This document shows, piece after piece, positions 11,001-45,895 of a stretch of DNA of 51,295 nucleotides. Under the pieces are notes generated by a model, which made no database searches, had not been told where the DNA came from, and saw nothing but the letters and a program-made list of their open reading frames with translations. The translations under genes were made by a program, and so were the position numbers. Position 1 is the first letter of the stretch. The number at the start of each line of letters is the position of its first letter. The stretch comes from a virus, in IMG/VR virus record IMGVR_UViG_3300009285_002927, positions 1 through 51,295 of that record. One strand, given 5' to 3'.

Positions 11001-13307
11001 AAGTATGACCTGGACCCTCGTTTCCCCCATTGGACCAACTCCACCAATACCAGGGGGAAAGTAAGCCGTAGAATTGTAACTTTGCAAGCCCATAGGGGCA
11101 AGCTGCCTCGGGGCAGCTTTGTAAGCATCGAGTGGACAGGGGAAGCTCCTCCTGATTGTGGAGCCATTTACAATGTGAAGAACGGAAGGAAGCTGATCAA
11201 CAGGTATTTCCGAGATTACCAGGAAGCCAGAGATTTTGCGGTGGTCCTGGCAGCCAAGTTTAACGGCACAATGACCGAGACTTTGTACCTCAACAAGGAA
11301 AAGTTGACACTCATAACGGCTTCATCACTATATCCAGGGATGATGGTACCTGTTCAAAACGGAAGTCTTGCATCGTGGGGTATAAAGGATATGCTACATA
11401 TTACGGCATATCGGGAGATGGCTGCCCAATTGGGGTTGGACATCTCGGACCTGAAGCAATCCAAATCTGCAATGCATGAAAGGATCCGGGAAACGCAGGA
11501 AGAGAGATGCCTCTCTAACCCTCTCCCGCCCATCAAGGGATCCCCTGTATCCCTGGACGGAATTGTAACTGTTGAACCTATAGAGGGGGGTACATATTTT
11601 GACATCACAGTAGACAAGGCAGGTAACTTCTTTGGAAATGGCATTCTGTCCCACAACTGCCAGCACATCATGTTCGGGATGATTGCGGGATATATTGACC
11701 CCTCCAACCTCAAGCCAAGAACTGATGGAAAAACATCTGCGGATACATTTGCCTATATAGGCGACGATAAACAGGCTATATTCGAGTTTCGTGGCGCATT
11801 ACCAGATGAATTCATCCGCAAATCCGACCTTGTACCAGGGGGTGAGGGTTTCAAGACCCTTCTCATGGAGAAGAACTATCGCTCTGGTAGCAAAATCGTC
11901 GATGCTGCCAACAAGCTGATATCCTTCAACTCCAAGCAGATCCCAATGACATGTACCACGGACCCCTCCCGTGGAGAGGGGTCCATTCAGCGAAGGCAAG
12001 TTGGCTTCGCTGATGAAGGCCCAGGCATGATGGTGGAACTCATCCAAGCTGCCTATGAGGAAGCCAAGGCCAATGGTGAGAACTTGGATGGCTTCTACAA
12101 GAAGTATGGGCTAGCAGCCAGGACCAACAGTGAGCTGATTGGTTACCAGATGGCCATGATTGGTGCTGGTATCCCCTTCCGATCGAAGCGAAACCCACTA
12201 GATGGTCCAGCCACCGGCCCCATTGTGGCTTTGTTCAAGCTGTTCCTTCCAGGGACATCAGTAAAAGACCGGAACGACAGTTTCGTCCGTGGCATGTCGG
12301 CCCCCTACTTTGGAATGAGCCCTCATACAGTAAAGAAGAAGCTCTCCGACCTTGGGGCTGGAGACTTCTACAGGTTCTGTGAGGAGGGTGGGTACAAGAA
12401 ACTCTACTCCGGATCAGACTACAGAGACCGATTTGTGGCCTACCTGGATTACCTCAAGGAAATCAAAAAGCTCTCAGAGAGCGGGGGTAGTGCAGCTCTC
12501 CTGAACTTCATCCTGGACTTCCGTGGCCCAGACGGCCAGAACTTCGGGGAACAGCTGGCCATTGAAATCAAGAATAGCCCAGAGCAGATGGATGAGGCAC
12601 AGTTGCTAGCTGATGAGGCTGAGTTGGACGAAGTCACGGATAGCATCCTGATCCAACAGGCTTTGAAGCCAGTATCACCCCTATTCGGTGTGGCTGCCCG
12701 TTATCCACAGGCTAATGACTTCGTGGAATACGTGAACTCCCTGTCCATCAAAAACGACAGGAACAACAAAACCGATGATGAGGACGCTGAGGGGACCAAG
12801 AACCTCATCACGGTCGATACGGTGCATGGTTGGAAGGGTCTGGAATGTGACCACCTGTTCCTGCCAATGTCCCAAGGACAGTTCCCCCACAAGAGGTCCA
12901 TGGGAAGTGACAAACTTCTTGAGTCGGAACGTCGTCTGGCCTATGTGGCCTTCACGCGGGGTAGAGATTCCGTTACCATCATCGAGCCCACCATGCGCCA
13001 GAAAGGGGACAAGGTTGTACCTATAGAGCCCAGTCAGTTTGTCGGGGAAGCCTGCATTCAGTCCCAAGGGGTCCCTGCCACCTCTCAGGAAGTTGCTGGA
13101 GATGAAGACGTGGACGAAAGGGATGCCGAGGATGAGCCCACATCCAGGATGGCCAGGGTAAAGAAAGCTCTCCGTACTGGCCAGGACAGCATGTTCCTTA
13201 TGCCTATCTTGGAAAAAACGGCTGATGATGATCTCATTGCCGAAGAGGAGCCCGAAGAGAAAACGGCTGACGATGACCTCATCGCAGCTTGGGAAGCGGG
13301 GATCTGA
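8082..13307 (+). CDS. UvrD/PcrA/Rep-type helicase with intein and long N-terminal extension
   Basis: A 1741-residue precursor, 1343 residues after removal of the intein (795-1192); typical UvrD/PcrA proteins are about 720. The P-loop SGAGSGKT is at 289-296, preceded by about 285 residues of helical sequence not recognised as a helicase domain. Motif II is LIDEAQDLN with the intein just after it. Other superfamily 1 signs are YIGDDKQAIFEFRGA, MEKNYRSGSKIVDAAN, VDTVHGWKGLECDHLFLP and RRLAYVAFTRGRD. The role is 3'-5' unwinding in replication, repair or recombination. The start is GTG with AGGAG upstream. The C-terminus holds two copies of EKTADDDLIA (1711-1720 and 1726-1735). It heads a plus-strand operon, three bases before the next ATG. 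Confidence 0.9.
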   Translation: MDIDAKDFVDYATFYVALSSVDELIATLTTAGEEKPTEYSGLDLLVLQNQRLDADRFIRMIAPSLDSAIDILVRDMAEKANLRIKIRIDMALKGSPVSGYAKRRDLLLFFLGRMKAHNNKLREDLEAVGTKATALVRAASLSSPLSRLFEVASIQSASGRNNKLKQWAIKASGLCGNAVSEEEVLANELQEVKSLVDEIQAADRKLVTRDPGDSEAAEIAEVKADLKSTLKEAIEQSSDPNAVKLAVATQINDSAKTPYLTKVGAAIKGGLSPAQEEQVMARGKLIIASGAGSGKTRVLASKVVYHMQELGQGPGSVMAVSFSIKSSAELKKRVFDYAEKAGLNLPKSGDYPGFGTTHAIARMVLNSSGRYRISAGDRGGDKSESAIKGGELNKLIKVAIEQVKMSARSTPSIPKDAMTFFPNLGNIATPSINNESNVKAPIDVPVQEPSPIEVYLEDANGYASLIDTALQALRSSQQGVLKVEGKSLSTRFGPKTLITIRGPGVKQFYNELSRMRTPDGNQTKYEKANPQYRTPDQFQIWAGPNANIEATRAFIDKYLGLGTIQNSIDALLSLKGKDPKDITDSERGILQTIVTQPVVASKLKSTNMAVKTAADENGNEPAFEDSGEMDAYEAQGIQKMKQNTTDPYYYWLNNPAGQWFNIGASASDFEKEDDKGTKKKVPLSVFARFIGINKNTLVAPGQTFVDAEKPQDGASAEDDEREEQEGGVSSRILAAVYGAYEWLKTNSTPTKGRLDYDDQLIQAARVLSENPQLLKRLQTQYKTVLIDEAQDLNKCVHGDTVVTTRSGTKMVKDLTIGEDVLSLEAGRIEFHRILAKADSSWTRGYRITTATGRTLTMSPDHQIYATDIERVPEGQMALYMMYRKDMGFRLGTSTRPTHRTKGGSNSRAAAEHADAMWILEMGTPEDILYKEQAYSLKYGVPTYIYEGYNHGCDQPRIDKLFQEFGKNGLSLLQKYDLDPRFPHWTNSTNTRGKVSRRIVTLQAHRGKLPRGSFVSIEWTGEAPPDCGAIYNVKNGRKLINRYFRDYQEARDFAVVLAAKFNGTMTETLYLNKEKLTLITASSLYPGMMVPVQNGSLASWGIKDMLHITAYREMAAQLGLDISDLKQSKSAMHERIRETQEERCLSNPLPPIKGSPVSLDGIVTVEPIEGGTYFDITVDKAGNFFGNGILSHNCQHIMFGMIAGYIDPSNLKPRTDGKTSADTFAYIGDDKQAIFEFRGALPDEFIRKSDLVPGGEGFKTLLMEKNYRSGSKIVDAANKLISFNSKQIPMTCTTDPSRGEGSIQRRQVGFADEGPGMMVELIQAAYEEAKANGENLDGFYKKYGLAARTNSELIGYQMAMIGAGIPFRSKRNPLDGPATGPIVALFKLFLPGTSVKDRNDSFVRGMSAPYFGMSPHTVKKKLSDLGAGDFYRFCEEGGYKKLYSGSDYRDRFVAYLDYLKEIKKLSESGGSAALLNFILDFRGPDGQNFGEQLAIEIKNSPEQMDEAQLLADEAELDEVTDSILIQQALKPVSPLFGVAARYPQANDFVEYVNSLSIKNDRNNKTDDEDAEGTKNLITVDTVHGWKGLECDHLFLPMSQGQFPHKRSMGSDKLLESERRLAYVAFTRGRDSVTIIEPTMRQKGDKVVPIEPSQFVGEACIQSQGVPATSQEVAGDEDVDERDAEDEPTSRMARVKKALRTGQDSMFLMPILEKTADDDLIAEEEPEEKTADDDLIAAWEAGI
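10464..11657 (+). other. Intein after the DEAQD motif of the UvrD-type helicase, no LAGLIDADG motifs seen
   Basis: A 398-residue in-frame element, precursor residues 795-1192. It begins CVHGDTVVTTRSGTKM, has block B MSPDHQIYAT, and ends FFGNGILSHN followed by Cys, giving a full class 1 splicing set. It separates DEAQDLNK from CQH. The middle (about residues 890-1120) carries YKEQAYSLKYGVPT and lacks any LAGLIDADG or HNH signature I can see; it may be a different or decayed endonuclease domain. Confidence 0.9.
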
Positions 13308-21911: not shown

Positions 21912-22394
21912 GGCATGCACCTGGAAATGGTACCTGAACCCACCAAAAGTTGGAGCCTCAAATCGGAACTGGGAGCCAAGCAATGGACCCTACTCAATCA
22001 GGTTGTGTGCCAACGGGCCAGCAATCGCTGTGAGGAATGCCTGTGTTCCTCCCAAATCGAATGCCTGGAGCAATGGGAATACAACGACACCACCCACACC
22101 CAAACTCTGGTAGGCTTCAAGGCTCTATGCCCCGCCTGCCGTGAAGTAAGAGACTTGGGCCGTGCCTGTTCCAGGGGCGATGGAAAACGGGTAGCATCTC
22201 ACCTTCAAGCTCTTAACCGATGGTCGCCAGAGGAACTTGACGCCCAAATTGAAAAGGCATTTGACGTGTGGATGGAACGATCCGCACATGACTGGACTCT
22301 CGACCTCCGGCTACTTGTTGTCGTCCAAACCGACCCGGAGATCATCGGCCGATCTTATTGGATGCCCTTTCAACTTGGGCAGCCTGCGAATTGA
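21906..22394 (+). CDS. HNH-family protein lacking the catalytic histidines
   Basis: A 162-residue protein from the first ATG; starts at 21915 or 21927 are also possible because no good ribosome site is visible. The layout CEEC (42-45), IECLEQWEYND (51-61), QTLVGFKALCPAC (66-78), then LNRW, AFDVWMERS and WTLDL closely follows a phage/bacterial family annotated as HNH endonuclease, where the matching segments read ECHExWxYDD and ALCPxCHxVKH. Here the histidines are replaced: ECLE (L54), CREVRD (R79, D83). The four zinc-type cysteines remain, so the fold is probably kept but cleavage lost. The 3' end overlaps the end of the tail-hub gene on the other strand by 53 bases. Confidence 0.7.
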   Translation: MVGMHLEMVPEPTKSWSLKSELGAKQWTLLNQVVCQRASNRCEECLCSSQIECLEQWEYNDTTHTQTLVGFKALCPACREVRDLGRACSRGDGKRVASHLQALNRWSPEELDAQIEKAFDVWMERSAHDWTLDLRLLVVVQTDPEIIGRSYWMPFQLGQPAN

Positions 22395-25300
22395 GCCGGT
22401 TGGTTCCTGTTGTGTTCGTCAGGTTGCTCGCCAGACTATCCGCCTGAGACTGAACCCCGCTCGCAATTGACTGCCATCCCGACACACTATCCAAGAGGGA
22501 GCGGCGCCCACTGCCTGTGGTAATACCCCGTAGAGCCGACTGAGCGGCTGCCCAGGCAGGTGCCGCCTGTACCATCTGCCCCGCCACCCATCGAGCCGCA
22601 TCATCCGGAGTCTGGACACTCACGAAGGTAGTGTTCTCAGCTCCAGACATATAGGCCGCTAGAAGCAGATCCGCCTCAGCCCCACGACAAGCACAGGAAT
22701 CCTGGCCCCCCAATGGGTCCCCCATTGGAGTCAGGTCGGTGAGGTTGAAAGCTGCGTTATTGACCGGGAGCTTCATCACGGCATCACGATCCGACATGAT
22801 GTAGTTACGCAGCCCATTAGCGATCTGGGTTGTACGGGTCCCCGTGGCACCGGCTGTTGGGTTCTCTGCCCACTGCAATACCCTTTGGGCACCTTCTGCG
22901 AATTGAGGGTCGGCCGCAATTCGAGCCAAGACCCTGGCTTCAGTATCCGCATCCTGCCTGCGCATTGCCCTCAACAGAGCTTCCAGGTCTGCCGGGTTGG
23001 CAAAACGAAGGGGGTCACTTGACATCAACCGCTCGTAGTTGCCCCCCGGCTCGATGGAGAGCCCCCGGCCATATTGGTAGGACCCATAATGCTCATAGCC
23101 CTTGGCGTCGGACACGGGAAACACAGGGGAAAAAGTAGCGTTGTCCACAGAGGCGAACCGGGTTTCTGTGGACCTCTGGAAGGGCCTGCTGTTTGGAAGG
23201 GGCCTCCCAGCAAACAATGCCGTGATGGAATCCTCCCAGGGACGAAGAAGCTGTGTTATTGTGGCTGGGATCTGAGTGGTTCTTGAGGGGAGATCCTGCA
23301 ATGCAGAAATAGCTTGGGCCAGAGCCTCACTGTTTGCCTGACTCACCTCTTGCACCAAAGCATGGGCCTTGGCACCTAGCACCGTCATAGTATGATGCCT
23401 GTTGGTCAGCATCCCGGTGTTGCTTGGGTCCACGTCATTCGGGGTACCATTTGAGATATTGGGGGTTCCATCAATGGGACCTGTAGCAGTATTGAGGTTG
23501 GCGATGCCTGTGATGGCCCCCTGAATTGCCTCGGAGGGGGGCCTAATCATTGTCATGTTCCCCAACACGGCCGCCATGTTGTTGGTTAGAGCCCGGACAA
23601 GGGATGTTGCAGTGCCTGCGAGGCAACTGTTAATGAAAACAATGGCCGACTGTGGGGTGTGCCCAACGGCGAGAACCGTGGAGGTTCCCCTCGTGGGCCT
23701 ACTGATCTGACTGGTACCAAACGTAAGGGACACAATCTCACTGGTAGGCACGATCCTGGTGTTAGTGAAGGTACGGACCCGCAACCCTTTGGTAGGACGG
23801 TGTTTGGTGCCTATTTCCACGAAGTCCTGGCGCCTATCCTCAGGAAGCCCCTCAATGTTTGACGCCTGACGAACCACCGTTGTGGTCAAGTCCTCCTCCG
23901 GGTTCACATGGGTGCTACTACTCTGGGTCCCTGGGGTTGGGGCTGTATCCTCCGTTGTCTGGCTCTGAGGGATCCACTCCCTAAGGGAAGTTGTCGCCAA
24001 TCTGTGGATGTTACGGGCATACTGCCCCTGATCCCCGGTGGAATATCCACTTCTCGATAACTGCGGGGCATACAGGTCAATGTTCCCTGTGGTCAGTACC
24101 TGATCAATTGCCTCTCCGTGGTTATGCAGGAGGTTTCGCAAGTAGTCTCTGGACCCCTCTTCTGCTGACCCATATGCCCTAAACCAAGCATTAGTATCAT
24201 GAAGGGTTACAGTACCATCCGCATTTGTGGTTCCCTCCTGGGTTCCAAGATGTACTCTCCCACCCACCCAACGGTTTCCTGCCTTCACCCCTCCAAAATT
24301 GAAGTTATACATACCCTGACCACGAGCACCATTCTCCAGCGCCCACTGGGCTGACATTACAGCCAATACAGCATCTGGAGGAGATTGCCCCCGCTCTGCA
24401 ATGTATGCCTGCCGCAAATACCGCACAGCTTCCTGTGGGCTCATCTGGGTGTGCTCTGCACGTTGATCCCCAGATAGGGTGGGTGAGTCCGATGTGGGGG
24501 TCGTGGTAGTCCCACCACTCGTTGTCGGCCTAGTGATATCAGCATCCCCTTGTTGAGCCGGATTGGGGTGGGAGGCGGAATAATAGCGGTACTGTCCTGG
24601 GGTGTTGACCGACATTGATGCCTTACGGTCTGACAGTAGCTCCAAAGTATTAGAGGACAGGTTGATGGTGCCGGTGGGGTCGAAGTCCATATCCCTTTGA
24701 ACTGCTCCGGTCGAGCGGGTTTGAAGCTGTTGGATCAGGTAGGAAAGCAATACCACCTTGTCATTGTCCTGCAATGTGGTCGCATGACTAGATAGGCTGC
24801 TCGGATGGGCTGTGTGGTTGCCATTCACCTCATGAAGAATGTGTTCCACCGCAGTGAACTGATTGGCATAGGCAAGCAAAATGTCATTCTGTGTACCAGA
24901 TGGGTCCGATGGGGGGGAGTCAAAATTTGTGGTCAGAGTTGTAAGCCGTTGTCGGGCGGTATCCAATTCAGATTGAAGGTGTGCAACATCCACATGCGAA
25001 GGGGCCCGGGGCCTGGGTGCCGGGTGAGGGGCCGTTGCAGGAGTGGTGGCCGGTGGTGTGGCCGGAGGCGTTGGGGCCGCTGGGGTAGCTGCGGGTGTAG
25101 CTGGGGCCGGATGGGTGCCCGTGCGGGGTCTCGTCGGTGTCGTTGTAGCCGGTGCTTGCACCCCCCCAATGTTTGCCAATTCAGCCGCCTGAATTTGACG
25201 CTCAAGCCTCTCCACCGTGGCACTGAGTGTTGTGATGCTGGTCTGCGTGAGGTCTCTGGTGGTAATGAAGGTGCCCAGAGCCCTAGTAAGGTCGGCCTCA

Positions 25301-27399
25301 TTCACCGTGAAGGTGCTAAATTGGCTTCCAATAGCGACCCCCCATGATTGGGTAGTTGAGTTGCCAGTACTTCGATAATCGGTATTTCCCCTCGCTGAGG
25401 ATGTTGAGGCCCCCTCATTTCCAGGGGATATAAGCACACCACGCTCCAACAGGGCTTGAATGAATCCCCCAATGAAGGTCTGACGCCGGGCATCTGTTAC
25501 CTCCCGTCGATTGGTACCTGTGGTGGCTGTGAGGTTTCTAGACTCCGCTCCAAACCCATACGAGTAGAACATCGGGTTGATGTGCATAGGGTCAAGCGCC
25601 ATGACCACGTTGGGGAACCCTATTAGCCGTGGGATCCCACTATTGTCAAGGACCTGGAGAGGCCGGGGAGACATGTTGGTCTTATCCAACTGCACCTGGG
25701 GAAGGTCTGCCCCAACGGATGCCCCTGAGTTGTCTCCCGGTGGGATGAACTTCCTTCGGCGAGCCGTCAACGACAGGGTCGTGGTGCACTGGCCCCCAAA
25801 ATTGAAGGCATGCGAGATGGACTGGACATAGTAGTAACAATCAATGTGGGGGATGTATACGGGGTAGCCTGGACGAATCTCAGGCCGAAGTGGGATCGTG
25901 ATCGAACAAGCGTTCACCCCCGCATTGATCCGGTCTAGCTGTGAGATGCCAAAGAAGAAGGCTGACTTGGCATTGTTGTAGTAGGTTGACTCGATGGAAC
26001 TTTCGCGCCACCCATATTGGGCCACGAGTTTGTAGTCTACGTATGTGGACCGGGTACCCCACTCACTCTCGTCCACCAACCCACGGGTGTTCTGGAAAGC
26101 CCCTCCCTTGATGATGATGTATGTGGCCTCCGGCTCGGTCTCCGTAAACGAGATGGAGATGATGTCAATGGGCTCGATACGATAAACCCGCGAGGAGCTG
26201 GTATCCAGGTTGAACAGTGGGGGCTTGAAGACAAGGTCCCCGTCCACATCCTGGTAGAACTCATAGCCCGTGACCCCCGTCACCGAGGTAGCAATGTCAA
26301 GTTTTGACTCATAGGTGGACTCAAACAAGTTCACCTGCCCATAGCTACCATAGTCAGTGGCGAAAGCTTGAAGCTGTTGGGCATTCGTACTGAGGCGGCT
26401 CCCATTTTCCGAAGGCAGCAATCGAGTTGCTTGCCTGAGGACCCGACTATCAACCAAAGAACTGAGAGGGATGTCCTGGGCAAATGGGTCCCCAGATGGG
26501 CGGGCCGTTGCAGCACTGTGTCCAGCAATGTGCTGGTGACCCCCCTGGGCACTAGACCCTGAACCATAGAGGGACAGGAATGCCTGTTGGGAGGATGTGA
26601 AAAGCTCTCCCGTCGCCCCGTGCATACGGAGCCCATAGATACGGCTGCGGAACCGCTGCTCCCAGTAACGGATAGTCAGTGCATACAGGGAGTCTCCCGT
26701 AGTCGCATTGACAGCCCCATAGTTGGACCTGCTAGACAGGGCAAACCCCACACCGGCTGCGGCCCCCGCAGTATCCCTGTAGAGGGAGTACATGATCGAA
26801 TAAGGGGACTTGCCAGACAGGGGATGCCCTGTAACGGTGGTGTGCACCCCGCTGTTTGTGGGTCTTGCCCCGAAGAACGAACCAGAGGTGGAAAACTTGA
26901 GGTGCTGCCAGAAATGGAGCATCCCGTTACAGGTCAGGGTGGCCGAGTAGTATCCCCCCGAATACTCATAGCCAACCGAAGTCACTACCCCGTGAAACAC
27001 TGGGTAGTAGGGATATTGGGGGATGTCTCCAAGGTTGATGCCACCAACCGCTGTGGGGGCATTGGAGGTAGTCATTCCCTTTACGGGGAAGTACCCTCGG
27101 AAATAGATATGTACCTCCAGCCCCGTCCTCAAGAGGGTGTTCCCATCCCTGAAAATGGAGTCCCCATAGGTCCGTGGGACTGCCAGGGAGATGCTGGAGT
27201 TGGAGGCTCCGGGCTCGACCCCACAGTCAATCGAGACAGATGTCACGAACTTTTGGATGTCGATATTTCTACGGCATTGCCTGCAACCTGGAAGAGAAGT
27301 GTCCCCGTTGAGGTACACAAGAAAATCGCAGACCGTTTGCACAACCTCCCTCTTGTTGGGAGCCCAGGTTCCAGCGTAAGGTCGATTGACTATGGACAT
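22342..27399 (-). CDS. Tail hub protein fused to a glucosaminidase-like peptidoglycan hydrolase
   Basis: A 1685-residue protein. Residues about 1-600 are beta-rich with TGLEVHIYFRGYF, FHGVVTSVGYEYSGGYYSATLTCNG and IRPGYPVYIPHIDCYYYVQSISHAF, the pattern of gpD/gp27-type tail hubs. A helical segment and a Pro/Ala/Thr-rich linker (about 750-795) follow. At about 1000-1150 lies a lysozyme-like domain: AVLAVMSAQWALENGARGQGMYNFNFGGVKAG, with E1022 at the position of the catalytic acid in FlgJ/GH73-type glucosaminidases. The last 500 residues are unassigned. The start is ATG 27399 with GGAGG nine bases upstream, overlapping nothing but only three bases from the previous stop. The protein would sit at the tail tip and cut peptidoglycan during infection. 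Confidence 0.8.
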   Translation of the reverse strand: MSIVNRPYAGTWAPNKREVVQTVCDFLVYLNGDTSLPGCRQCRRNIDIQKFVTSVSIDCGVEPGASNSSISLAVPRTYGDSIFRDGNTLLRTGLEVHIYFRGYFPVKGMTTSNAPTAVGGINLGDIPQYPYYPVFHGVVTSVGYEYSGGYYSATLTCNGMLHFWQHLKFSTSGSFFGARPTNSGVHTTVTGHPLSGKSPYSIMYSLYRDTAGAAAGVGFALSSRSNYGAVNATTGDSLYALTIRYWEQRFRSRIYGLRMHGATGELFTSSQQAFLSLYGSGSSAQGGHQHIAGHSAATARPSGDPFAQDIPLSSLVDSRVLRQATRLLPSENGSRLSTNAQQLQAFATDYGSYGQVNLFESTYESKLDIATSVTGVTGYEFYQDVDGDLVFKPPLFNLDTSSSRVYRIEPIDIISISFTETEPEATYIIIKGGAFQNTRGLVDESEWGTRSTYVDYKLVAQYGWRESSIESTYYNNAKSAFFFGISQLDRINAGVNACSITIPLRPEIRPGYPVYIPHIDCYYYVQSISHAFNFGGQCTTTLSLTARRRKFIPPGDNSGASVGADLPQVQLDKTNMSPRPLQVLDNSGIPRLIGFPNVVMALDPMHINPMFYSYGFGAESRNLTATTGTNRREVTDARRQTFIGGFIQALLERGVLISPGNEGASTSSARGNTDYRSTGNSTTQSWGVAIGSQFSTFTVNEADLTRALGTFITTRDLTQTSITTLSATVERLERQIQAAELANIGGVQAPATTTPTRPRTGTHPAPATPAATPAAPTPPATPPATTPATAPHPAPRPRAPSHVDVAHLQSELDTARQRLTTLTTNFDSPPSDPSGTQNDILLAYANQFTAVEHILHEVNGNHTAHPSSLSSHATTLQDNDKVVLLSYLIQQLQTRSTGAVQRDMDFDPTGTINLSSNTLELLSDRKASMSVNTPGQYRYYSASHPNPAQQGDADITRPTTSGGTTTTPTSDSPTLSGDQRAEHTQMSPQEAVRYLRQAYIAERGQSPPDAVLAVMSAQWALENGARGQGMYNFNFGGVKAGNRWVGGRVHLGTQEGTTNADGTVTLHDTNAWFRAYGSAEEGSRDYLRNLLHNHGEAIDQVLTTGNIDLYAPQLSRSGYSTGDQGQYARNIHRLATTSLREWIPQSQTTEDTAPTPGTQSSSTHVNPEEDLTTTVVRQASNIEGLPEDRRQDFVEIGTKHRPTKGLRVRTFTNTRIVPTSEIVSLTFGTSQISRPTRGTSTVLAVGHTPQSAIVFINSCLAGTATSLVRALTNNMAAVLGNMTMIRPPSEAIQGAITGIANLNTATGPIDGTPNISNGTPNDVDPSNTGMLTNRHHTMTVLGAKAHALVQEVSQANSEALAQAISALQDLPSRTTQIPATITQLLRPWEDSITALFAGRPLPNSRPFQRSTETRFASVDNATFSPVFPVSDAKGYEHYGSYQYGRGLSIEPGGNYERLMSSDPLRFANPADLEALLRAMRRQDADTEARVLARIAADPQFAEGAQRVLQWAENPTAGATGTRTTQIANGLRNYIMSDRDAVMKLPVNNAAFNLTDLTPMGDPLGGQDSCACRGAEADLLLAAYMSGAENTTFVSVQTPDDAARWVAGQMVQAAPAWAAAQSALRGITTGSGRRSLLDSVSGWQSIASGVQSQADSLASNLTNTTGTNRLNSQAAQVERASNKIGR

Positions 27400-35122: not shown

Positions 35123-36304
35123 CTACCCTAGAAATCCCTGCACCCATCCCTGATCGAGAAGTCCCTTGACATCCTCAGGTTGTACGCGGCGATTCTTGGT
35201 CCCATTGTTGATCCACACAAGCCCCTTTTGCTGAGAGGGGATACCCGTGGAGTGGTGGGTCTTACCCCGTTCCCATCCCTGCTTGGTTAGTTCCTCAACC
35301 TCATTGGGCCAGACCTTCCGGCTTGTATAGCCATCATTAATCCAGAGCAGTCCTTTTTGCAGGGTCTGCCCATTACCTGCTAGCCATCCCTGGGCAATGA
35401 GTTCCTCGGCCTCCTGGGGCCATACTAGACGGCTCTCCCCAGTAGTGGTGTGAACCCACACCTGCCCACTTTTCTGGTCCCCCAACTCCCACCCCTGCTT
35501 GAGGAGTTCCTCAGCTTCATCGGGCCACACCTTTCGACTGGTAAGGCCCTTGCGAATTCCTATCCGCCCTTTTTGCTTATCTGGGATAGCCTTAAAATTG
35601 ATTTTGCCCAACACCCATCCCTGGCCGATTAGTTCCTCTGCCTCCTTGGGCCACAACCGGCGATTTGTGGTGGAGTTATGAACCCATATCCTCCCCTTTT
35701 GCTGGGTGGAAATAAGGGTGCGGGTATCTTGGTCGTGGGCTTGTGGGTGAGCTACGCAACGAACCTTGGCGGACTCTGACATCTGCTTGATGGTCTCGGG
35801 GGGGTGCCTTAATCCTAGAGTGGTTTTCACCATTTTGGCAATGGGCTTTGGCCTCTTTGGACCCCGTTTGGCGGCAAGCGCGAGGTGTGCTTGTGGACGA
35901 ATCCTATCCAGGATCTCCCTCTGTTTTGCAGCCAATCCTGGTTTGGTCCTATAGGTAAGTCTGGACTTCTGACGAGATTCCTCAGACCATTCCCCGCCAC
36001 CACCATCTGAGGTACTACTCAAATTCACGCAACCCGGCTTCCGGAAATGCTCATCAAGCCACTTCTGTTCTACTGCCTCCAGGTCCATTCCTTCCTCCCA
36101 TGGGATGGCGATCTCAGGCTCGAATCGACCATGGATATTGAACACAGCCTGCATGCGCTTGTTAACGTGTCTGTTTGCACGAAGATCCCACAGATGTTCC
36201 TTCCACCGACGTTTACAGTGGACGGAGCGGCCCCCGTAATAATGGACATCAGAGAGACGGATGACGTAAAGACCACTATTGGTAGTGGTAGGGTGAGTTA
36301 GCAT
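35123..36304 (-). CDS. GIY-YIG homing endonuclease with five C-terminal repeats
   Basis: A 393-residue free-standing protein. The GIY-YIG nuclease domain fills residues 11-95: GLY (11-13), YYG (22-24), RSVHCKRRWKEHLWDLR with the basic/His residues, and EAVEQKWLDEHF with the acidic residue. A linker with SEESRQKSRLTYR and HPPETIKQMSESAKVR (105-185) resembles NUMOD3-type DNA-binding motifs of homing endonucleases. Five repeats of about 33 residues follow (202-390), each with KGxxWI, RxVWPxEAEEL and QGWxxG. Such enzymes cut empty alleles and spread by repair. The gene stands between tail tube and chaperone-place genes, where no virion gene is expected, and is bounded by a hairpin upstream and a candidate promoter downstream. 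AGGT lies seven bases before ATG 36304. Confidence 0.85.
   Translation of the reverse strand: MLTHPTTTNSGLYVIRLSDVHYYGGRSVHCKRRWKEHLWDLRANRHVNKRMQAVFNIHGRFEPEIAIPWEEGMDLEAVEQKWLDEHFRKPGCVNLSSTSDGGGGEWSEESRQKSRLTYRTKPGLAAKQREILDRIRPQAHLALAAKRGPKRPKPIAKMVKTTLGLRHPPETIKQMSESAKVRCVAHPQAHDQDTRTLISTQQKGRIWVHNSTTNRRLWPKEAEELIGQGWVLGKINFKAIPDKQKGRIGIRKGLTSRKVWPDEAEELLKQGWELGDQKSGQVWVHTTTGESRLVWPQEAEELIAQGWLAGNGQTLQKGLLWINDGYTSRKVWPNEVEELTKQGWERGKTHHSTGIPSQQKGLVWINNGTKNRRVQPEDVKGLLDQGWVQGFLG
35135..35701 (-). repeat. Five protein-coding repeats in the endonuclease C-terminus
   Basis: Copies cover residues about 202-233, 244-275, 278-310, 316-347 and 359-390. The shared core is KG-x-x-W-[IV]-x-N/x-G ... 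R-[KR]-[LV]-W-P-x-E-A-E-E-L-x-x-Q-G-W-x-x-G. Copies differ enough at the DNA level that they are old, not a fresh tandem expansion. They probably contact DNA in a modular way. Confidence 0.85.
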
Positions 36305-36333: not shown

Positions 36334-36368
36334 GGGCCAGTGAGGCGTTCGTTGCGCTTCACTGGCCC
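36334..36368. terminator. Strong hairpin downstream of the tail tube gene
   Basis: GGGCCAGTGAGGCG pairs with CGCTTCACTGGCCC around a seven-base loop; one position is G-U on the plus RNA and A-C on the minus RNA. It lies 16 bases after the tail tube stop and before the homing endonuclease start. The T-rich run (GTCTTATTT) is on the plus-strand side, so as a factor-independent terminator it may work better against plus-strand transcripts; on the minus strand it may act by attenuation or protect the 3' end. Confidence 0.55.
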
Positions 36369-36383
36369 GTCTTATTTCAGAGA

Positions 36384-37181
36384 CTAGATTGCGCCACCAG
36401 CTGTTCCGACTGTACTGGTACCATACCGGATTGAGCCCAGTTGGCCCACGGTGGGATCCCCACCGCTCAAAAGTTGCTCCCCGTAGGTCGAAGCAAAATC
36501 GTGCACATCGCTCACGGTGACGTCCCCGGACTCCATAATCTGACCCTGGTCTTGCGAGTAGGTGGCCGACCAGCTCGTAAACCAGCATGCCTCATACATC
36601 GTGATGATTGCGGAGTGGCCAGGAGAGGCAGCATACCCTGTAGCCCCTGTAGCTGAGGCAGACACCCCAGGGGACACATTGGGATATCGCACTGGCTGGA
36701 CGCCCTGTGCAAACCCGCTCGTGGGCATGTGGGTACCAAGGTTAGCCGCACCAAGGTCATTGTCCGCAAGGGACGAGAAGACCAGCTGGTGCTCAATGTC
36801 AAATGGCCAACGGTGATGGGCCAGTGACCTGACCGGGCCGTCAACGCCAGCCGCATAGCCCACTGCCTGCCAAAGATTCGACAAATACAGAAGAGCCCGT
36901 TCCAATGATCCAGTGACAGGTTCTGTAACTGATGGAACTAATTCAGCAATTACGTCACCCATGCCGATTCCTCGAACGGCATCGACATTTCGGCTCTGGC
37001 TTGGAGAGAAGGAACTGACCACGCCCATTTGATACAGGCTGGTTGTTCCCGACCCGAATACAGGGGCAAGAAGACGGACCTTCTGGCTCACTGCCACGCG
37101 GGTATTGGGAGAAGTCCCGTAGTCATACAGGTAACTTGAGCCCTGTGCCCCGTGTGAATGATTGGTGTCCTGATTTGGCAT
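36384..37181 (-). CDS. Tail tube protein (probable)
   Basis: A 265-residue protein starting at ATG 37181 with AAGGAAG upstream. SQKVRLLAPVFGSG, YQMGVVSSFSPSQSRNVDAVRGIGMGD, AELVPSVTEPVTGSLERALLYLSNL and IITMYEACWFTSWSATYSQDQ followed by VTVSDVHDFAS form the pattern I associate with tail tubes of large contractile-tail phages. Size fits a tube subunit. It lies downstream of the sheath with only the metalloprotease gene between them, the usual sheath-tube order. A hairpin follows its stop, as often seen after highly expressed virion genes. The inner tube would carry DNA during injection. No direct catalytic or binding motif exists to test by eye. Confidence 0.65.
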   Translation of the reverse strand: MPNQDTNHSHGAQGSSYLYDYGTSPNTRVAVSQKVRLLAPVFGSGTTSLYQMGVVSSFSPSQSRNVDAVRGIGMGDVIAELVPSVTEPVTGSLERALLYLSNLWQAVGYAAGVDGPVRSLAHHRWPFDIEHQLVFSSLADNDLGAANLGTHMPTSGFAQGVQPVRYPNVSPGVSASATGATGYAASPGHSAIITMYEACWFTSWSATYSQDQGQIMESGDVTVSDVHDFASTYGEQLLSGGDPTVGQLGSIRYGTSTVGTAGGAI

Positions 37182-37230: not shown

Positions 37231-37803
37231 CTATGGATGCAACCTTCGCCATTCGGCGAGGTCTAGGTCAGTGGGGGTGTCCTGTGAGATTCCCGTGTAC
37301 TGTGTGGATCCAGATACGGGGTCCCCATAGAGAAGTTCTGGGTTCATAACAGCAGAACCAATCCCCACGGGGCTACAGACGGGCAATTCCCCCGATTCCA
37401 TGCAGATGTGTTGTAATCCTAGTGCGTGGCCCAACTCGTGTCCTACGGCTGCTCGGAGGCCCAATCCACCACCCGTACAAGCAGGATCTACCTCTACAAA
37501 GTGGGTTCCAATTGTGTATTGTCCACCACCATGTTCACAGTGAGGGCCTGAGTACCAATCCCTGACCACTAGATCTGGCGAGGACCACTCTGGAACCTCA
37601 ACAAACGTTGGGCCTAGGGCGTTTAGGGCTGTAAGCTCGGTCCGAAGGTCTACCAGTTGATCGGTGGACCAATCCCATGCCCCATCAAGGGATGGCCCGA
37701 AGGCGACGGTAACCCTACCATAACGAGTCTCGTCATGTTGGGAGGGTGCCACACAGGCAACTATTAGAGTGGACAGTGCAAAGGCGAGGATTGAGAGCTT
37801 CAT
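37231..37803 (-). CDS. Matrixin-type zinc metalloprotease lipoprotein
   Basis: A 190-residue protein. MKLSILAFALSTLIVAC is a lipoprotein signal peptide with lipobox IVAC, so Cys17 should be lipidated and the protein anchored to a membrane. The catalytic site is HELGHALGLQH: H122, E123, H126, G129 and H132 fit HExxHxxGxxH of the metzincins. SAVMNPEL provides a Met-turn methionine at 153. Cysteines at 89, 109, 134 and 143 could form disulfides outside the cytoplasm. No propeptide cysteine switch is visible. It is set between the sheath and tail tube genes, an odd place for a secreted enzyme, so it is probably a later insertion. Its ribosome site (AGGA) lies in the 3' arm of the hairpin at 37812-37845. 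Possible tasks include cleaving host surface or envelope proteins; substrate unknown. Confidence 0.85.
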   Translation of the reverse strand: MKLSILAFALSTLIVACVAPSQHDETRYGRVTVAFGPSLDGAWDWSTDQLVDLRTELTALNALGPTFVEVPEWSSPDLVVRDWYSGPHCEHGGGQYTIGTHFVEVDPACTGGGLGLRAAVGHELGHALGLQHICMESGELPVCSPVGIGSAVMNPELLYGDPVSGSTQYTGISQDTPTDLDLAEWRRLHP

Positions 37804-37811
37804 AATGGTCT

Positions 37812-37845
37812 GGGTCCTATAGGGCGGTTATGCGCTATAGGACCC
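37812..37845. terminator. Perfect 11-bp hairpin after the sheath gene, over the protease ribosome site
   Basis: GGGTCCTATAG and CTATAGGACCC are perfect inverted repeats with a 12-base loop. On the minus strand it follows the sheath stop by 16 bases and ends eight bases before the protease ATG. No T-run follows, so it may be a terminator needing help, a processing site or a translational block. The only Shine-Dalgarno-like sequence (AGGA) for the protease is inside the stem. Confidence 0.55.
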
Positions 37846-37861: not shown

Positions 37862-40800
37862 TCAGGTGCTGGTGACGCGCTGTGTGACCTGGATGTAGAG
37901 GAGTGGGAAGACTGGGGCGAAGTACGAATCCGCCAGCACACCCGTTGGATCCTCCGGGTCTGGAATGACCGAGATGCCCTTGAAGGCTGCGATGATCTGC
38001 TCAGCGACTGCCCTCTTGTACATCTCCGAGAGCTGCCCCTCGATCTGTCCGAGAACTTGTGGCAGGAACTTCTGGCCCTTGAAGGGGTCCAGGACTGCCC
38101 TGACGCGACGTTGCATCTCGTCCGTGATCTGGATGACCGTTGGGGTCTTGGTCAGGATATTGGACATATCCGATGTCAGACCGTGGCGGACCTTGACGAA
38201 TGGGGGCTTATTTTCCAGGACTGTGATGCCCTTGATCGCGATCTGGTTTGCCGTTGTCGTGCTGAGGCGACGGCTAAGGGTGAAGCCAACCAGTTGGCGG
38301 CTCTCCCAGGGGGTTGCCGGGTCAATGGTTGGGGAGGTGGTTGCCGCTGCAAGAGCCGCAGCTGGGTACCGACCATCCACCAAGTAACTCTTCACCTTCC
38401 CAAAAACATCCGTGAGAGACACGGTTGCGATCTCTGGGTAGACAAACCGGACACGGGTGGAGCCCGCGGTCTGGGCGATTAGGCCCACTTGGTCTGCCCT
38501 GGTACCTGCTGCGAACCCGAAGATTGCGGTACGCTCTGCCTTGAACCGGATGGACGATTGCACATCACAGTGGATAGACACGTTCTTGACAAGGTTCGCG
38601 GTTGCTGGGGTCAGGAACACCAACACTGTGGGGCTGAGTGACCCTGGGAGGCAATCCCCCGCTGAGTCATCCATTGCCGTCAGGTAAGCTGCTTCCGATG
38701 CCTGTGAGGAACCGGTGGTCTTCTGTACCTGCATGGTACCGATGACTGTTGACCCATTCAGGAAGGCAAGGTGTGCGGCCAGCGAGAGGGGGTTATCTGG
38801 AGAGACGGGGCCATACTCGTTGACCACGTCAGACAGCTTCGCGAAGAGCTTAGGAGTGAAGTCCGTCTTCGTGTAGTTGTAGCTGACGTAGTAGGCCTCC
38901 CCAATTGAGGGCTCCGACCCACCACGCTTGAAGGTCTCCACCAAGGCGGTATCCCCTGCTGGGACATCAACCGTGTTGGACACTGTCAGCTCCAGGCCAG
39001 GAATGGCCAGGACTGGGATGTTGCTATCCGTGAGGATAGTTGTGGAGGACCGGAAGGTCAGGGTGGCATTTGATCCCGTTGGGTAGTCTAGGCCACCGTC
39101 TCGTGGAAGTATTGTGAAGGTGAGGCCCGTCACATCGTCCACGTAAGTCTGTCCAACCGACCCATCCTGGCCTGTACCTGCGGTTGCGGTATTGAGGACC
39201 GAGGTGTTTGCGGATCCCGACCCATTTGTTGGATCTGAGGACTTGACGAAGAAGCCATTGATGGCTGCCTCACCGTTCGCCCCATCACCGGATACCAGAC
39301 CCAGGCCTGTTCCGGTTCGAAGTGCGTCCAGGGTTGTAGCATTCGCGAAGGCAAAGCTTGATGCTGTGCCCAGGGTCCTGCTCTGGATGTACACGTACTC
39401 CTTGTTCGTGAGACCCACTTCGACGCCCGCAATTGCCTTGCTGGCGAAGTATCCTGCACCCACCGCTGAAGGGTCGAGAACCCATGAAGCATAGGTCTGA
39501 ACGTGAGACATCAGGGTCGAAGCAACCTGCTTGGCCGTGACACCCGTTGCGGTTGCCACTGCACCTGTGGTGAACCCAAGGGTGGCATTGGCAGAGCCAC
39601 TACCGATGATGAAGGTTGCCGTCTGTGAGAAGGAGTCTGTCCCTGCCCCGTAGATTCGGATACCAGCCCCCTCTTGAATTGCAACTGGGGTGATGGTTCC
39701 CGGCACTGCCGAAAAAGCTGCCTGGATGGTATTGAGGATTGAACCAGCTGTGGTCTTGGGACCAAGGGCCGTTAGAGTTCCTGCGCCAGATCCAGTGAAC
39801 GTAACGGCGACCAACACCCCATTGACGGTGATATTGAAGACATTATTCGCCGGGAAGCTAGGATCGCTGCCATCATAGAAGCGAACCACTGGCATGCCAT
39901 CTCTGGCATCCGCGAAGCCGGTTCCAATTCCATCAACCCATCCTGGCACTCCCAGGAAAGTTGGCCCCAAGGCTGTTCCTCGATAGGCTGCCTCCCCGGT
40001 TGCTCCTGCTGGTAGACCCGCCTTTACTGCCCCTGTCCCACCCTGTGAGGCAAGGCCTGTAATGGACAGGGCGTGGAATGGTGCAAGGGATCCGGCACCG
40101 GGCATGATACGATTGCGTAGGATCAGGCGATCGTATGGAAGTCGCCCACCCGTTGTTGCAACTGTGTGTCGGGTAGCAATTGGACCACTGTAGAGCTTGG
40201 TCTGTGCTCCGGCGGCAGCTGCCGCTGTATCGATACCAGCGATAATTGCGAAGTCTCGGGCAGGAGTACCACCAACGATAAACTCCAGAACACCCGAGGC
40301 ATCACCGGCTGCTTGGGTGAGGGTGAACCGCATCTTGCTGTCTGCGGTTGCCGTACACACGATGGCCAACCCCAGGAAGGGGGCTGCCAAGAGACCCACT
40401 GCGATTGCAATCTGAGCGGATATCTCTGCCGCCAAGGTGGCTGCGGTGTAGGTGGCTGGGGTCAGGGTCACTGTCTGGCTACCCGAAGTACCCGATGTGG
40501 CACCCGTGTAGTTAAACATGAGACGGTCATACTCGTTGATAGTAACCGTGTACCCCTGTGCGAAACTACCCGCTGCCGTGTAGTAGGGGTCCGCTGCCCC
40601 ACCCGCAATAGCTGCTGCGTTGATGGCAGTAGCATATGCCGCGACCGTCACAGCACCTGCGGCTGAGGTAGCCGTGAGGGAAACCCCATCCACAAGCACC
40701 GAGACCACGTCATCCACACCGGCCACCACAGTGTAAGTGGTCTCACCGGATGCCGCAGTGTAGGCAACCTCACCACCCAGAAGAGAAGCAAAAGCTCCCG

Positions 40801-42820
40801 CACGTCCAACACCCGAGGGGAGAGTCAGATCAATACCACCCACCCCACCCGTGCTGCCTGCGACACCATCGATGGTAACTCGAAGGTTGCTGGACTGTCC
40901 AGGAACCGTGAAGTAGGGCCCGGATGCTGGGAATGTGAACCGGGCTGGAGTCGTATCGGAAGTCTCGAACCGGACCACCACAGTCTCGTCGATTGGTGTA
41001 CCCCCCTCGATGCGGGCATCTGGGAACAGCTCAGATCCCGAAGGGAAATTCACTGTTACCGTTGCAAGGTCGGTGCCCTTTGAGGTAAGAGTCACGCCGT
41101 ATTTTGAGCGGCTGAGACCGTCTACGAGCGAGTAGGTACCCACTCCCGAAGTACCAGGAGTCACACAGGTCAGTGTGTATCCACGAGACGACCCTACAAA
41201 CGCCTGATCAACCAGGGTGTTGTAGTAGAAGGTGGCGTACACCGTGGCTCCCTCAGGAACCTCAGAACCCAGGGTGATTGTCGACGTTTCGCTGTCAACC
41301 TTGAGAACCGTGACTGCACCACGATTCAGGGCATCCAGCACCCCAAAGCCCCAGTAAGCTGTTACCAGCTCTGGCTGATCGGTCGGGAGGTCCATCCGGT
41401 CATTGGCCACTGTCAGGTACATCGAGGATCCGAGGGGATTGCTCCGGCCGTTTCCTGTCGTGGGCTGGAAAGCAAGCTGGAACTGTGTGCGGCTCTCAAC
41501 CGAGACGTTACCAGAGGTTACCAGTACCGTGCTGCATGGAGAGAGGTATGCCCGATTGTCCACAAGGCTGGCGGTCACCTGGGTCGAACCGAAAGCCGTA
41601 AACCCTTCCGTGTGCAAGCCTGAAGACACCAGGGAAGCTGTTCCCCAAAGGATTGTGTCATTCTTGAGGATGTAGTCCGAGCCCTGGATGAAAACACCAG
41701 CACCGTTGCTGTTGGGAGTAATTGCAGCACGAGTGATTGCTGAGATCCCTGTGTTTGCCAAGTAATCGAAAGTGTCTTGCCACGTATTGAAGTAGTACTG
41801 GATGGTGACCGTGCTGCCCACAACTGGAGCCGCAGGAAGGGTCACCGCTCGGGTACGACCATCAACCGAAGTGGCCGTTACTGCCACCCCGTCCACTTCG
41901 ACCACCAGATCGGCTGGATTCGTGGAAGTAACGCCACCACCGTCGCCGGTCACAATTGGGCCATTGAACACGTAGAAGGTACGGTTTCGAGCCGTCGACT
42001 GATTGGCCACGAAACCGAGAACCCCATTCGCGTTCCCGTCACCCAGAACAATCGAAACATCCGCGGTCAAACGAATGCAAACCCGCCCAAGGTAGTTGGT
42101 ATAGGCTGTTGCTACCAGGGACCCGATACCCGAGGCACCGTTGATCGTTGCCACCACCACTGCCGCTGTGAAACTGACAGCACTCGTGGGCATCGTGATG
42201 CTGACTTGGGCCAGACCATCCACGGCAACCTTGAAGGTATCTGTCGTGCTCAGCACAAACGCGAAGTTCTCTCCCGTTTGGCCATCTAGAATAGCTGCGG
42301 TTGTGGTCACCTGAGACGAAACGTCATCGGTCACCTGTGTATCCGTACGGTCGAAGAAGTAGGTGCAGAGCACCACATCCGTTGCAAGTGGGTACTCAGA
42401 GATCTCAACCAAACCCGTTGCTGAGTCCAGACCTAGCACCACAATGGCGTCACCATTCACCGTGACGGACACGGCCGAGGTATCCGTTGCAGCTGTTCCC
42501 GTACCGTCCCCAGAGACGATCGGGAAGTTCTTCACCTGGAAGCGATTGGACGTCCCGTCAAACGCCCCAAGGGTAATTGACCCATCGGGGTTGACAGAAA
42601 CCACCATCCTATCGGCTTCATCCTCGCTGACAATCTGCTGGTCCACCGTCGAGGAACTCCCACGAACTACTGGGAGGTTGCTCTGTGACAGTGTCTCCAA
42701 TCCCGTTCCAATGAACAGGGGAAGAACTGGAGGAACCGAGGGAGGAACTGGAGGAGCCCCGAAAAAGGTCTGTGTGTAGACACCGGGAGGGGCATAACCG
42801 CCGTTTAGCAAACTTGGCAT
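37862..42820 (-). CDS. Tail sheath protein, exceptionally long
   Basis: 1652 residues from ATG 42820; a TTG 39 bases upstream is in frame but the ATG has TGGAGA at the right distance and gives MPSLLNGGYAPPGVYTQTFF, a classic sheath N-terminus (PGVYxxxF). The C-terminal 400 residues hold the conserved sheath core: AHLAFLNGSTVIGTMQV, DCLPGSLSPTVLVFL, RFVYPEIATVSLTD, RQLVGFTLSRRLSTT and PFVKVRHGLTSD, then EMQRRVRAVLDPFKGQKF. Between lie about 1100 residues of Thr/Val/Gly/Ala-rich beta-type sequence with recurring FxVxVDG and TxAAxxAxxINA patterns, probably several inserted domains decorating the outside. Common sheaths are roughly 400-700 residues. It contracts to drive the tube through the host envelope. 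Confidence 0.88.
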   Translation of the reverse strand: MPSLLNGGYAPPGVYTQTFFGAPPVPPSVPPVLPLFIGTGLETLSQSNLPVVRGSSSTVDQQIVSEDEADRMVVSVNPDGSITLGAFDGTSNRFQVKNFPIVSGDGTGTAATDTSAVSVTVNGDAIVVLGLDSATGLVEISEYPLATDVVLCTYFFDRTDTQVTDDVSSQVTTTAAILDGQTGENFAFVLSTTDTFKVAVDGLAQVSITMPTSAVSFTAAVVVATINGASGIGSLVATAYTNYLGRVCIRLTADVSIVLGDGNANGVLGFVANQSTARNRTFYVFNGPIVTGDGGGVTSTNPADLVVEVDGVAVTATSVDGRTRAVTLPAAPVVGSTVTIQYYFNTWQDTFDYLANTGISAITRAAITPNSNGAGVFIQGSDYILKNDTILWGTASLVSSGLHTEGFTAFGSTQVTASLVDNRAYLSPCSTVLVTSGNVSVESRTQFQLAFQPTTGNGRSNPLGSSMYLTVANDRMDLPTDQPELVTAYWGFGVLDALNRGAVTVLKVDSETSTITLGSEVPEGATVYATFYYNTLVDQAFVGSSRGYTLTCVTPGTSGVGTYSLVDGLSRSKYGVTLTSKGTDLATVTVNFPSGSELFPDARIEGGTPIDETVVVRFETSDTTPARFTFPASGPYFTVPGQSSNLRVTIDGVAGSTGGVGGIDLTLPSGVGRAGAFASLLGGEVAYTAASGETTYTVVAGVDDVVSVLVDGVSLTATSAAGAVTVAAYATAINAAAIAGGAADPYYTAAGSFAQGYTVTINEYDRLMFNYTGATSGTSGSQTVTLTPATYTAATLAAEISAQIAIAVGLLAAPFLGLAIVCTATADSKMRFTLTQAAGDASGVLEFIVGGTPARDFAIIAGIDTAAAAAGAQTKLYSGPIATRHTVATTGGRLPYDRLILRNRIMPGAGSLAPFHALSITGLASQGGTGAVKAGLPAGATGEAAYRGTALGPTFLGVPGWVDGIGTGFADARDGMPVVRFYDGSDPSFPANNVFNITVNGVLVAVTFTGSGAGTLTALGPKTTAGSILNTIQAAFSAVPGTITPVAIQEGAGIRIYGAGTDSFSQTATFIIGSGSANATLGFTTGAVATATGVTAKQVASTLMSHVQTYASWVLDPSAVGAGYFASKAIAGVEVGLTNKEYVYIQSRTLGTASSFAFANATTLDALRTGTGLGLVSGDGANGEAAINGFFVKSSDPTNGSGSANTSVLNTATAGTGQDGSVGQTYVDDVTGLTFTILPRDGGLDYPTGSNATLTFRSSTTILTDSNIPVLAIPGLELTVSNTVDVPAGDTALVETFKRGGSEPSIGEAYYVSYNYTKTDFTPKLFAKLSDVVNEYGPVSPDNPLSLAAHLAFLNGSTVIGTMQVQKTTGSSQASEAAYLTAMDDSAGDCLPGSLSPTVLVFLTPATANLVKNVSIHCDVQSSIRFKAERTAIFGFAAGTRADQVGLIAQTAGSTRVRFVYPEIATVSLTDVFGKVKSYLVDGRYPAAALAAATTSPTIDPATPWESRQLVGFTLSRRLSTTTANQIAIKGITVLENKPPFVKVRHGLTSDMSNILTKTPTVIQITDEMQRRVRAVLDPFKGQKFLPQVLGQIEGQLSEMYKRAVAEQIIAAFKGISVIPDPEDPTGVLADSYFAPVFPLLYIQVTQRVTST

Positions 42821-42859
42821 TGGGAGTCTCCAGAGGGAAGGAAAGCGGCGAAAGCTCAA

Positions 42860-44851: not shown

Positions 44852-45895
44852 TTAATATTCCTGGCTGGCTTGCACTAAGAGTCCATGTGCCACTGCATTG
44901 AGGGGGTCACTGGCTGCTCGAATCTCACTGATCTGAATGGGGAACTTCTTCCTCTTCCGGTCAAACACTGACTTGAACAGTTCCAGGAACCCCCCTGCCT
45001 TGGATGTGCCACCCGACACGACCATTGGGATGGGATTCGGAAGCGCAAACCTGCCTTGAATGGTCTGAAACTGAAGAGCAATCTGATCAATGGTGTACTC
45101 AATCAGGTTCCGAAAATAGAAGACCAAGGCTTCCTGCTCACGGCCCACAGGAGCATTCAGGTCAATGCCCTTTTCCTTGATGGCACACATCCTGGCTTGA
45201 GTGCCACCAATGGACTTTGCCGCCCCTGCGTCGATAAAGTCCCCTCCCCGGGCAACCGAAAAAGACAGCCCCTCAATCGTGTTGATTGCGAGAGCACAAT
45301 TTGTCATACCGGATCCATAACTTAGGGCAACTGCTGAGAAATTCTCCTTAGCTGTCTCCGCAAAAACCAGAGACATGGCCTCATTCGCCGCCGTAGGGGT
45401 GTAGCCACATTCCCGAACGATCTTCTCCAGGACACCACGGTGATAGATCACATCCTGTCCGGGACGGTCCACAGGGGCGGCAGGAACCGAGAAGTAGCAA
45501 TGCTCGTTTGGTACCTTAGGCTCCCCCAAGACATTCTTGATCAGGAGCCCTAGCACTTCCATGGCATCAATGTCTGACGAGGACATCAACCCAGCGGCAA
45601 GGGGCCTACGAGCCTCCTTGCCGAAAATGTTGGCTGTGTCCAGGGCGGCATCCCCCAAAATCAGAAGCTCATCATCTCGCTCCACATAGCTCACGTTAGC
45701 GAGCTTCAGCATCTTCTTGGATTCCAGAGGAAGCTCCAGGAAGGCATCCCGAATACGGCGGGTCTCAATGCCCTTGTCCGTACGACGGGCAGCCACAATA
45801 TTCATGGTCCCCACGTCTAAACCCGCGGATAAATTGGTCTTTTCACCCAGGTCCCCTGCAATGCTCTCCAGGATGTCATTCTTTGGTCGTGCCAT
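44852..45895 (-). CDS. Actin-like ATPase (ParM/FtsA/MreB superfamily)
   Basis: A 347-residue protein with all main motifs of the actin/Hsp70 fold: phosphate 1 GLDVGTMN (25-32), connect-1-like NEAMSLVFAE (171-180), phosphate 2 SYGSGMTN (192-199), then GGDFIDAGAA (217-226), adenosine motif VVSGGTSKAGGF (292-303) and connect 2 DPLNAVAHGLL (330-340). Length fits bacterial actins. Such proteins polymerise with ATP and move or position DNA or membranes. GGAAGAAG before ATG 45895 is a good ribosome site. The gene overlaps the preceding 207-residue gene by 20 bases and lies among neck/tail genes, not beside a plasmid-type ParR or centromere repeats. Its job here is unknown; virion-assembly positioning or DNA handling are guesses. 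Confidence 0.85.
   Translation of the reverse strand: MARPKNDILESIAGDLGEKTNLSAGLDVGTMNIVAARRTDKGIETRRIRDAFLELPLESKKMLKLANVSYVERDDELLILGDAALDTANIFGKEARRPLAAGLMSSSDIDAMEVLGLLIKNVLGEPKVPNEHCYFSVPAAPVDRPGQDVIYHRGVLEKIVRECGYTPTAANEAMSLVFAETAKENFSAVALSYGSGMTNCALAINTIEGLSFSVARGGDFIDAGAAKSIGGTQARMCAIKEKGIDLNAPVGREQEALVFYFRNLIEYTIDQIALQFQTIQGRFALPNPIPMVVSGGTSKAGGFLELFKSVFDRKRKKFPIQISEIRAASDPLNAVAHGLLVQASQEY

Follow-up and report, generated by a model that had tools for sequence, protein, structure and literature searches.

The window, by which we mean the whole analysed stretch of 51,295 nucleotides of viral DNA, is 99.87–99.995% identical to a 485-kb phage (LR745208.1/IMGVR_UViG_3300025030_000038). 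On its minus strand, the gene P0001 (37231..37803, ATG start at 37803) encodes a protein of 190 amino acids, which we describe as a lipoprotein metzincin based on the ORF list, a family alignment, an AF2 model, and Foldseek searches. The gene is flanked upstream by the tail sheath gene (37862..42859, minus strand, 1665 aa) and downstream by the gene of a putative tail tube protein (36384..37181, minus strand, 265 aa). The distance from the sheath stop to the metzincin start is 58 bp, and that from the metzincin stop to the putative tube start is 49 bp; the common strand of the three genes and this spacing suggest that the metzincin is probably carried on the late transcript. In each of 17 relatives, the C-terminal 260 residues of the sheath protein are assigned to phrog_2839 (“tail sheath”), which confirms one of the two neighbours named in the original prediction, whereas the tube neighbour is a reasonable but inferred label, taken from gene order, i.e., from the position between the sheath gene and a tape-measure-like gene. 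The putative tube protein is conserved in 28 viral loci with 57–100% identity; it gave no PHROG or Pfam match and no meaningful PDB match, and its AF2 model has a pLDDT of 29. On the 3′ side of its gene follow a GIY-YIG homing endonuclease (35123..36304, minus strand; phrog_314, E = 2e-12), two further genes, and the tape-measure-like protein of 1127 residues. The GIY-YIG endonuclease is also found at the equivalent place in two related phages (L004 and L006), indicating a second insertion point after the tube gene.

All sequence elements that had been predicted for the open reading frame, namely the HELGHALGLQH motif, a Met-turn, a lipobox signal, and four cysteines, are present. The N-terminus, MKLSILAFALSTLIVAC followed by VAPS, has the appearance of a lipoprotein-type signal: called by a regular expression and hydrophobicity only, it combines a positive n-region, a hydrophobic core, and the lipobox cysteine of Sec/SPII substrates. 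The lipobox IVAC (residues 14–17; 37753..37764, minus strand) contains the predicted lipidated Cys17, which is aligned with a cysteine in L155, L157, L172, and L178. The zinc-binding motif covers residues 122–132 (37408..37440, minus strand) with E123 as the catalytic residue, and the Met-turn SAVMNPE (residues 150–156; 37336..37356, minus strand) contains M153. Across the 12 aligned homologs, HExxHxxGxxH, i.e., the zinc ligands together with E123, is invariant, as are P155 and two of the four further cysteines (Cys89, Cys109, Cys134, and Cys143), C134 and C143, and M153 is Met in at least 90% of the homologs. Full-length homologs with 43% identity in two prophages, the invariant residues, and a confident AF2 model argue that the open reading frame is not a chance one. 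Sequence and model together support the proposed complete exported enzyme, which would be a probably active, lipid-anchored metzincin. Recent acquisition of the gene was considered and rejected, because its GC content of 0.55 equals the phage average and its GC3 is only slightly low.

The metzincin fold anticipated from the motifs was recovered by AF2 (pLDDT 87.9, pTM 0.83) with the 12-member family alignment as input. A Foldseek search of the model against the PDB returned 30 matches with E ≤ 0.001, mostly to MMP catalytic domains and other metzincins, with probabilities of 0.99–1.00 to MMP, serralysin, astacin-type, and snapalysin chains; karilysin, a bacterial matrixin, was also matched and is the best PDB match by sequence. 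The TM-scores against MMPs, as normalised by target in Foldseek, were approximately 0.5–0.6. Among viral models, fold matches included insect-virus MMPs, the Zn-dependent protease of Lactobacillus phage 3-521 (A0A4Y5FGF2), and a protein of Synechococcus phage P60 (L0CNS5), of which the latter two are fold-level matches with greater lengths (253 and 338 residues) and 13–17% identity. Pfam gave sub-threshold matches only, nearly all of them to metzincin families (Reprolysin_4, 17 bits). The matrixin profile PF00413 (M10A) scored 15.8 bits, below its curated cut-off of 24, and other metzincin families scored similarly; a PHROGs search with the protein gave no match. The proposed matrixin relationship therefore holds for the fold, which is nearest to matrixins, but not for the Pfam threshold. 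The zinc motif, the Met-turn, and the predicted catalytic fold are those of the metzincin superfamily, and from the AF2 model and its Foldseek matches to MMPs and other metzincins we assign the protein as a metzincin with a predicted matrixin-like fold.

The protein has the extended zinc motif and the Met-turn in common with matrixins (MEROPS M10/PF00413; karilysin and MMP catalytic domains), which are also its best fold matches; it differs from them by four conserved cysteines that surround the active site, the sub-threshold Pfam score, and the pro-domain. Most, but not all, matrixins carry a pro-domain with a cysteine switch; none was recognisable in the sequence or the model of the 190-residue protein, which consists of a signal peptide and a catalytic domain only.

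The original prediction regarded the gene as an insertion between two genes that are normally neighbours. We compared the sheath-tube joint with 27 other viral loci containing the tube gene, including the near-duplicates L008/L009, L016/L017, and L028–L030. Among the 24 loci in which the sheath-tube distance was measurable, this phage included, it was 125 bp in L005, where the joint is empty, and 510–8497 bp in the other 23, with a median of approximately 3.5 kb for all 24. The joint is thus open in 22 of 23 related loci, or longer than 400 bp in 23 of 24 when this phage is counted, which points to a cargo site of the lineage rather than a tight pair that was broken once, and which lowers the initial surprise about the location. 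The coding content was established for some of the gaps, where it is diverse: ROS/MUCR-type zinc-finger proteins in L006, L022, and L028, an acyltransferase-like protein in L006, a PLD-like protein in L023, and a VIT/VWA (inter-alpha-trypsin-type) protein of approximately 850 residues in L020 (7282–9846), with similar open reading frames in L021 and L012. The reading as a rare insertion is weakened accordingly. On the other hand, none of the 27 other loci contains this metalloprotease at the joint, and this absence from every related phage tested identifies the metzincin as cargo, in the sense of a moron that is present here while close relatives lack it at the equivalent joint. A search of INPHARED found no metzincin homolog except in the same phage, LR745208. 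The marker Terminase_6C had no match in any phage tested, including this one, and was hence uninformative.

We searched for cellular relatives with the pattern GHExGHxLGxxHxC, which requires a glycine before the first histidine and is narrower than the pattern used for viruses, and found three loci in 84,980 species genomes; an earlier genome pattern with Q before the third histidine had given no matches. Two of the three are full-length relatives with 43% identity in a single Myxococcaceae MAG, which share a ...PSQxDxxRYG stretch after the lipidated cysteine. Both reside in prophages, as indicated by baseplate J proteins (Pfam E = 4e-14 and 8e-23), with the gene order baseplate J, fibre-like genes, a membrane-protein gene, and then the metzincin. 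One of the prophages has a sheath-initiator-like gene (weak, E = 0.003), and weak PHROGs matches to spanin-like and endolysin-like proteins lie near the prophage metzincins. No further full-length relatives were found in 379 Myxococcota genomes, where the remaining matches are weak, centre on the motif, and fall in longer proteins; chromosomal myxococcal ancestry was rejected because the only full-length cellular homologs are those of the prophages.

Profiles built from three sequences retrieved this phage alone or nothing from viral sequences, whereas the shorter H-x-C pattern HExGHxxGxxHxC retrieved the family, adding nine genes that are spread over eight contigs with lengths of 27–172 kb. 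Clear phage genes are present on several of these contigs, including those for terminase, portal, head protease, and tail fibre. The members share the signature HExGHxLGMxHxC ... CSPVGxGxAxMNP ... LDxxEFxR, and every complete member has a lipobox or an N-terminal membrane helix, with otherwise dissimilar N-terminal sequences. The copy in L192 is split into two open reading frames, and in several other phages the gene stands alone, often on the strand opposite to its neighbours. As judged from these sequences, the metzincin belongs to a coherent, uncatalogued virus-borne subfamily. Compared with the original prediction, the location is less surprising and the family more interesting.

Small anchored metzincins are also found in other large phages. 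A looser scan of viral contigs with HELGHxLGLxH, a crude filter applied to IMG/VR, which can include non-viral sequence, gave at least 91 distinct open reading frames of less than 450 residues; among the matches listed, the N-terminus resembles a signal sequence in at least 42, and a clear lipobox is present in at least 11. The matches listed include the large phage contigs G420 (473 kb), G422 (424 kb), and G427 (481 kb), and a tail sheath is present in G420 and G427. G420 (IMGVR_UViG_3300050821_013430; loci L207–L210, L214, and L215) encodes four different small lipoprotein metzincins, three of them within 407–427 kb. Directly beside one of the four genes lies that of a trypsin-like lipoprotein (Trypsin_2, E = 6e-19). 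In G002, a related phage, a matrixin with a TM anchor is encoded approximately 50 kb from the sheath; it scores 30.7 bits, above the Pfam cut-off. Like the metzincin of the window, the other huge-phage metzincins of approximately 190 residues (L031, L053, L079, L094, and L207–L213) are small, N-terminally anchored, single-domain proteins, but they show little similarity beyond the zinc-motif region, lie at other genome positions, and lack the H-x-C...CSPVG...MNP signature. Their occurrence in separate large phages suggests that anchored mini-metzincins were probably gained more than once. The enzyme had been called a non-standard phage part, which is accurate in that the gene is non-core, yet such proteases recur across unrelated phages. 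We tentatively consider, as a possibility that we would not bet on, that small lipid- or helix-anchored metzincins constitute in several unrelated lineages of huge phages a dedicated envelope-proteolysis module remodelling the host surface in the course of infection, with up to four such enzymes per genome and, in one case, a trypsin-like lipoprotein alongside, and with the sheath-tube joint as one exchange site.

In the literature, in which many subscription papers fell outside the scope of the search, the sole phage-derived metzincin or matrixin case that we found is the mtz-tim locus of Listeria monocytogenes, where the metzincin Mtz and its partner Tim sensitise cells to phage lysis and raise virion release (PMC8235301). 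Both Mtz and the metzincin described here are exported proteins of phage origin with HExxHxxGxxH and a Met-turn, and Mtz is membrane-associated (PMC8235301). Mtz, however, has a Sec/SPI signal peptide without a lipobox in the protease itself, is paired with the TIMP-like lipoprotein Tim, and belongs to a Gram-positive host and a locus with a cI/cro-like switch (PMC8235301). No TIMP-like partner gene adjoins the metzincin of the window, the flanking genes being those of the sheath and the putative tube, and no other convincing lipoprotein is encoded in the window.

The explanation that we regard as most probable, at slightly less than an even chance, is that the metzincin, accessory cargo at a variable site within the tail operon of one lineage of huge phages, cleaves envelope proteins of the host at a late stage of infection and thereby aids lysis and particle release. 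The product, a zinc endopeptidase reduced to the minimal metzincin form, would be expressed late along with the tail proteins and pass through the Sec pathway. Lipidation at Cys17 would then fix it to the envelope, its catalytic domain facing away from the cytoplasm and within reach of one or several host envelope proteins that it may cleave. The benefit would most likely be a weakened envelope or the stripping of surface proteins as infection ends, making lysis and release more efficient. In E. coli, the residue at +2 after the lipidated cysteine directs membrane sorting; if this rule applies in the host of this phage, the Val at +2 would favour the outer membrane. A late role in release is favoured by the placement in late operons both here and in the two divergent Myxococcaceae prophages, and the set of four metzincins with a trypsin-like neighbour in G420 would fit proteolysis dedicated to the surface of the host. 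Listeria Mtz, the nearest tested precedent, also counts toward release. Against it, the Listeria effect involves the partner lipoprotein Tim, and the window contains no candidate partner with a convincing lipobox; a link to lysis is also not universal, given the lone, often opposite-strand family genes in several phages.

Those lone, oppositely oriented copies look moron-like and would suit superinfection exclusion or receptor shaving, in which the anchored protease removes or alters surface proteins used as phage receptors, so that the infected cell is protected against further phages or progeny are released from debris bearing receptors. Receptor-blocking lipoproteins are known from phages, e.g., Llp of T5, and the lipid anchor and the presumably surface-facing protease of an accessory gene fit such a role. 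Nevertheless, we consider this unlikely, if the most serious of the alternatives, and release is better supported, because the gene is part of a late tail operon both in this phage and in the two prophages, and excluding an incoming phage is least useful at that stage; no receptor linkage was found. The Myxococcaceae prophages also raise the idea of a cargo that benefits the host or its community through an envelope-bound or vesicle-borne protease (in nutrition, biofilm, predation, or defence against other cells). Both cellular homologs reside in a MAG of this family, proteolysis suits predatory or social hosts, and one phage carries four such enzymes; the window shows no sign of lysogeny for the huge phage, however, and the prophage copies are grouped with late structural genes instead of lysogeny genes, which makes this benefit improbable.

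Virion-borne hydrolases are common, and the position between the sheath and the putative tube might suggest a tail-associated protease for envelope penetration at entry or an assembly protease. We regard a virion component as very improbable, since the lipobox or TM anchor is conserved in unrelated phages with the gene outside the tail module and none of the 27 other loci has the metzincin at the joint. Least credible of all, to the point of being nearly negligible, is a decaying or neutral passenger without function: the gene is rare in the lineage and the L192 homolog is split, but all catalytic and disulfide-candidate residues are retained at 43% identity across phage types and the composition (GC 0.55) matches the phage.

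Phage lysis is usually described in terms of holin, endolysin, and spanin, and proteases of envelope proteins have, to our knowledge, hardly been considered in it. If real, a family of membrane-anchored metzincins that recurs among huge phages would mean that host takeover or release includes an additional, proteolytic step. As small, expressible single-domain enzymes, these proteins lend themselves to testing envelope proteolysis, and the sheath-tube joint, as a cargo site in one huge-phage lineage, is useful for mining accessory functions.

A perfect hairpin with an 11-bp stem (37812..37845, minus strand; −24.4 kcal/mol) ends 8 nt before the metzincin start codon and is more stable than expected (z = −3.8; 0 of 200 shuffles as stable). 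Having no T-run, it is unlike a standard terminator. The nearest SD-like sequence, AGGA, sits in its 3′ arm, and by covering it the hairpin could keep metzincin translation low, which would count against a role in release. As a hypothesis only, the hairpin may sequester the ribosome site, with translation proceeding mainly from transcripts that start inside it; some T4 late genes are translated from transcripts starting within a hairpin. No sigma70-like promoter was found just upstream of the metzincin gene, although the sigma70 consensus may not be that of the host. A second strong hairpin, with a 15-bp stem (36334–36368), precedes the GIY-YIG gene, and a short element, GTTTCC..CCTATAG, precedes the tube start in L004, L006, L008, and L010; it might act as a late promoter or at the RNA level.

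Elsewhere in the window, the structural region encodes an actin-like protein (44852–45895, minus strand; Pfam Volactin, E = 1.6e-68), and several related phages have retained this actin-like gene at a distance of a few kb on the upstream side of the sheath gene. A UvrD-type helicase of 1741 residues (8082–13307, plus strand) contains internal Hint/intein-like segments, and a protein of 1685 residues (22342–27399, minus strand) with a glucosaminidase domain (E = 1e-7) is probably a tail-associated lysin.
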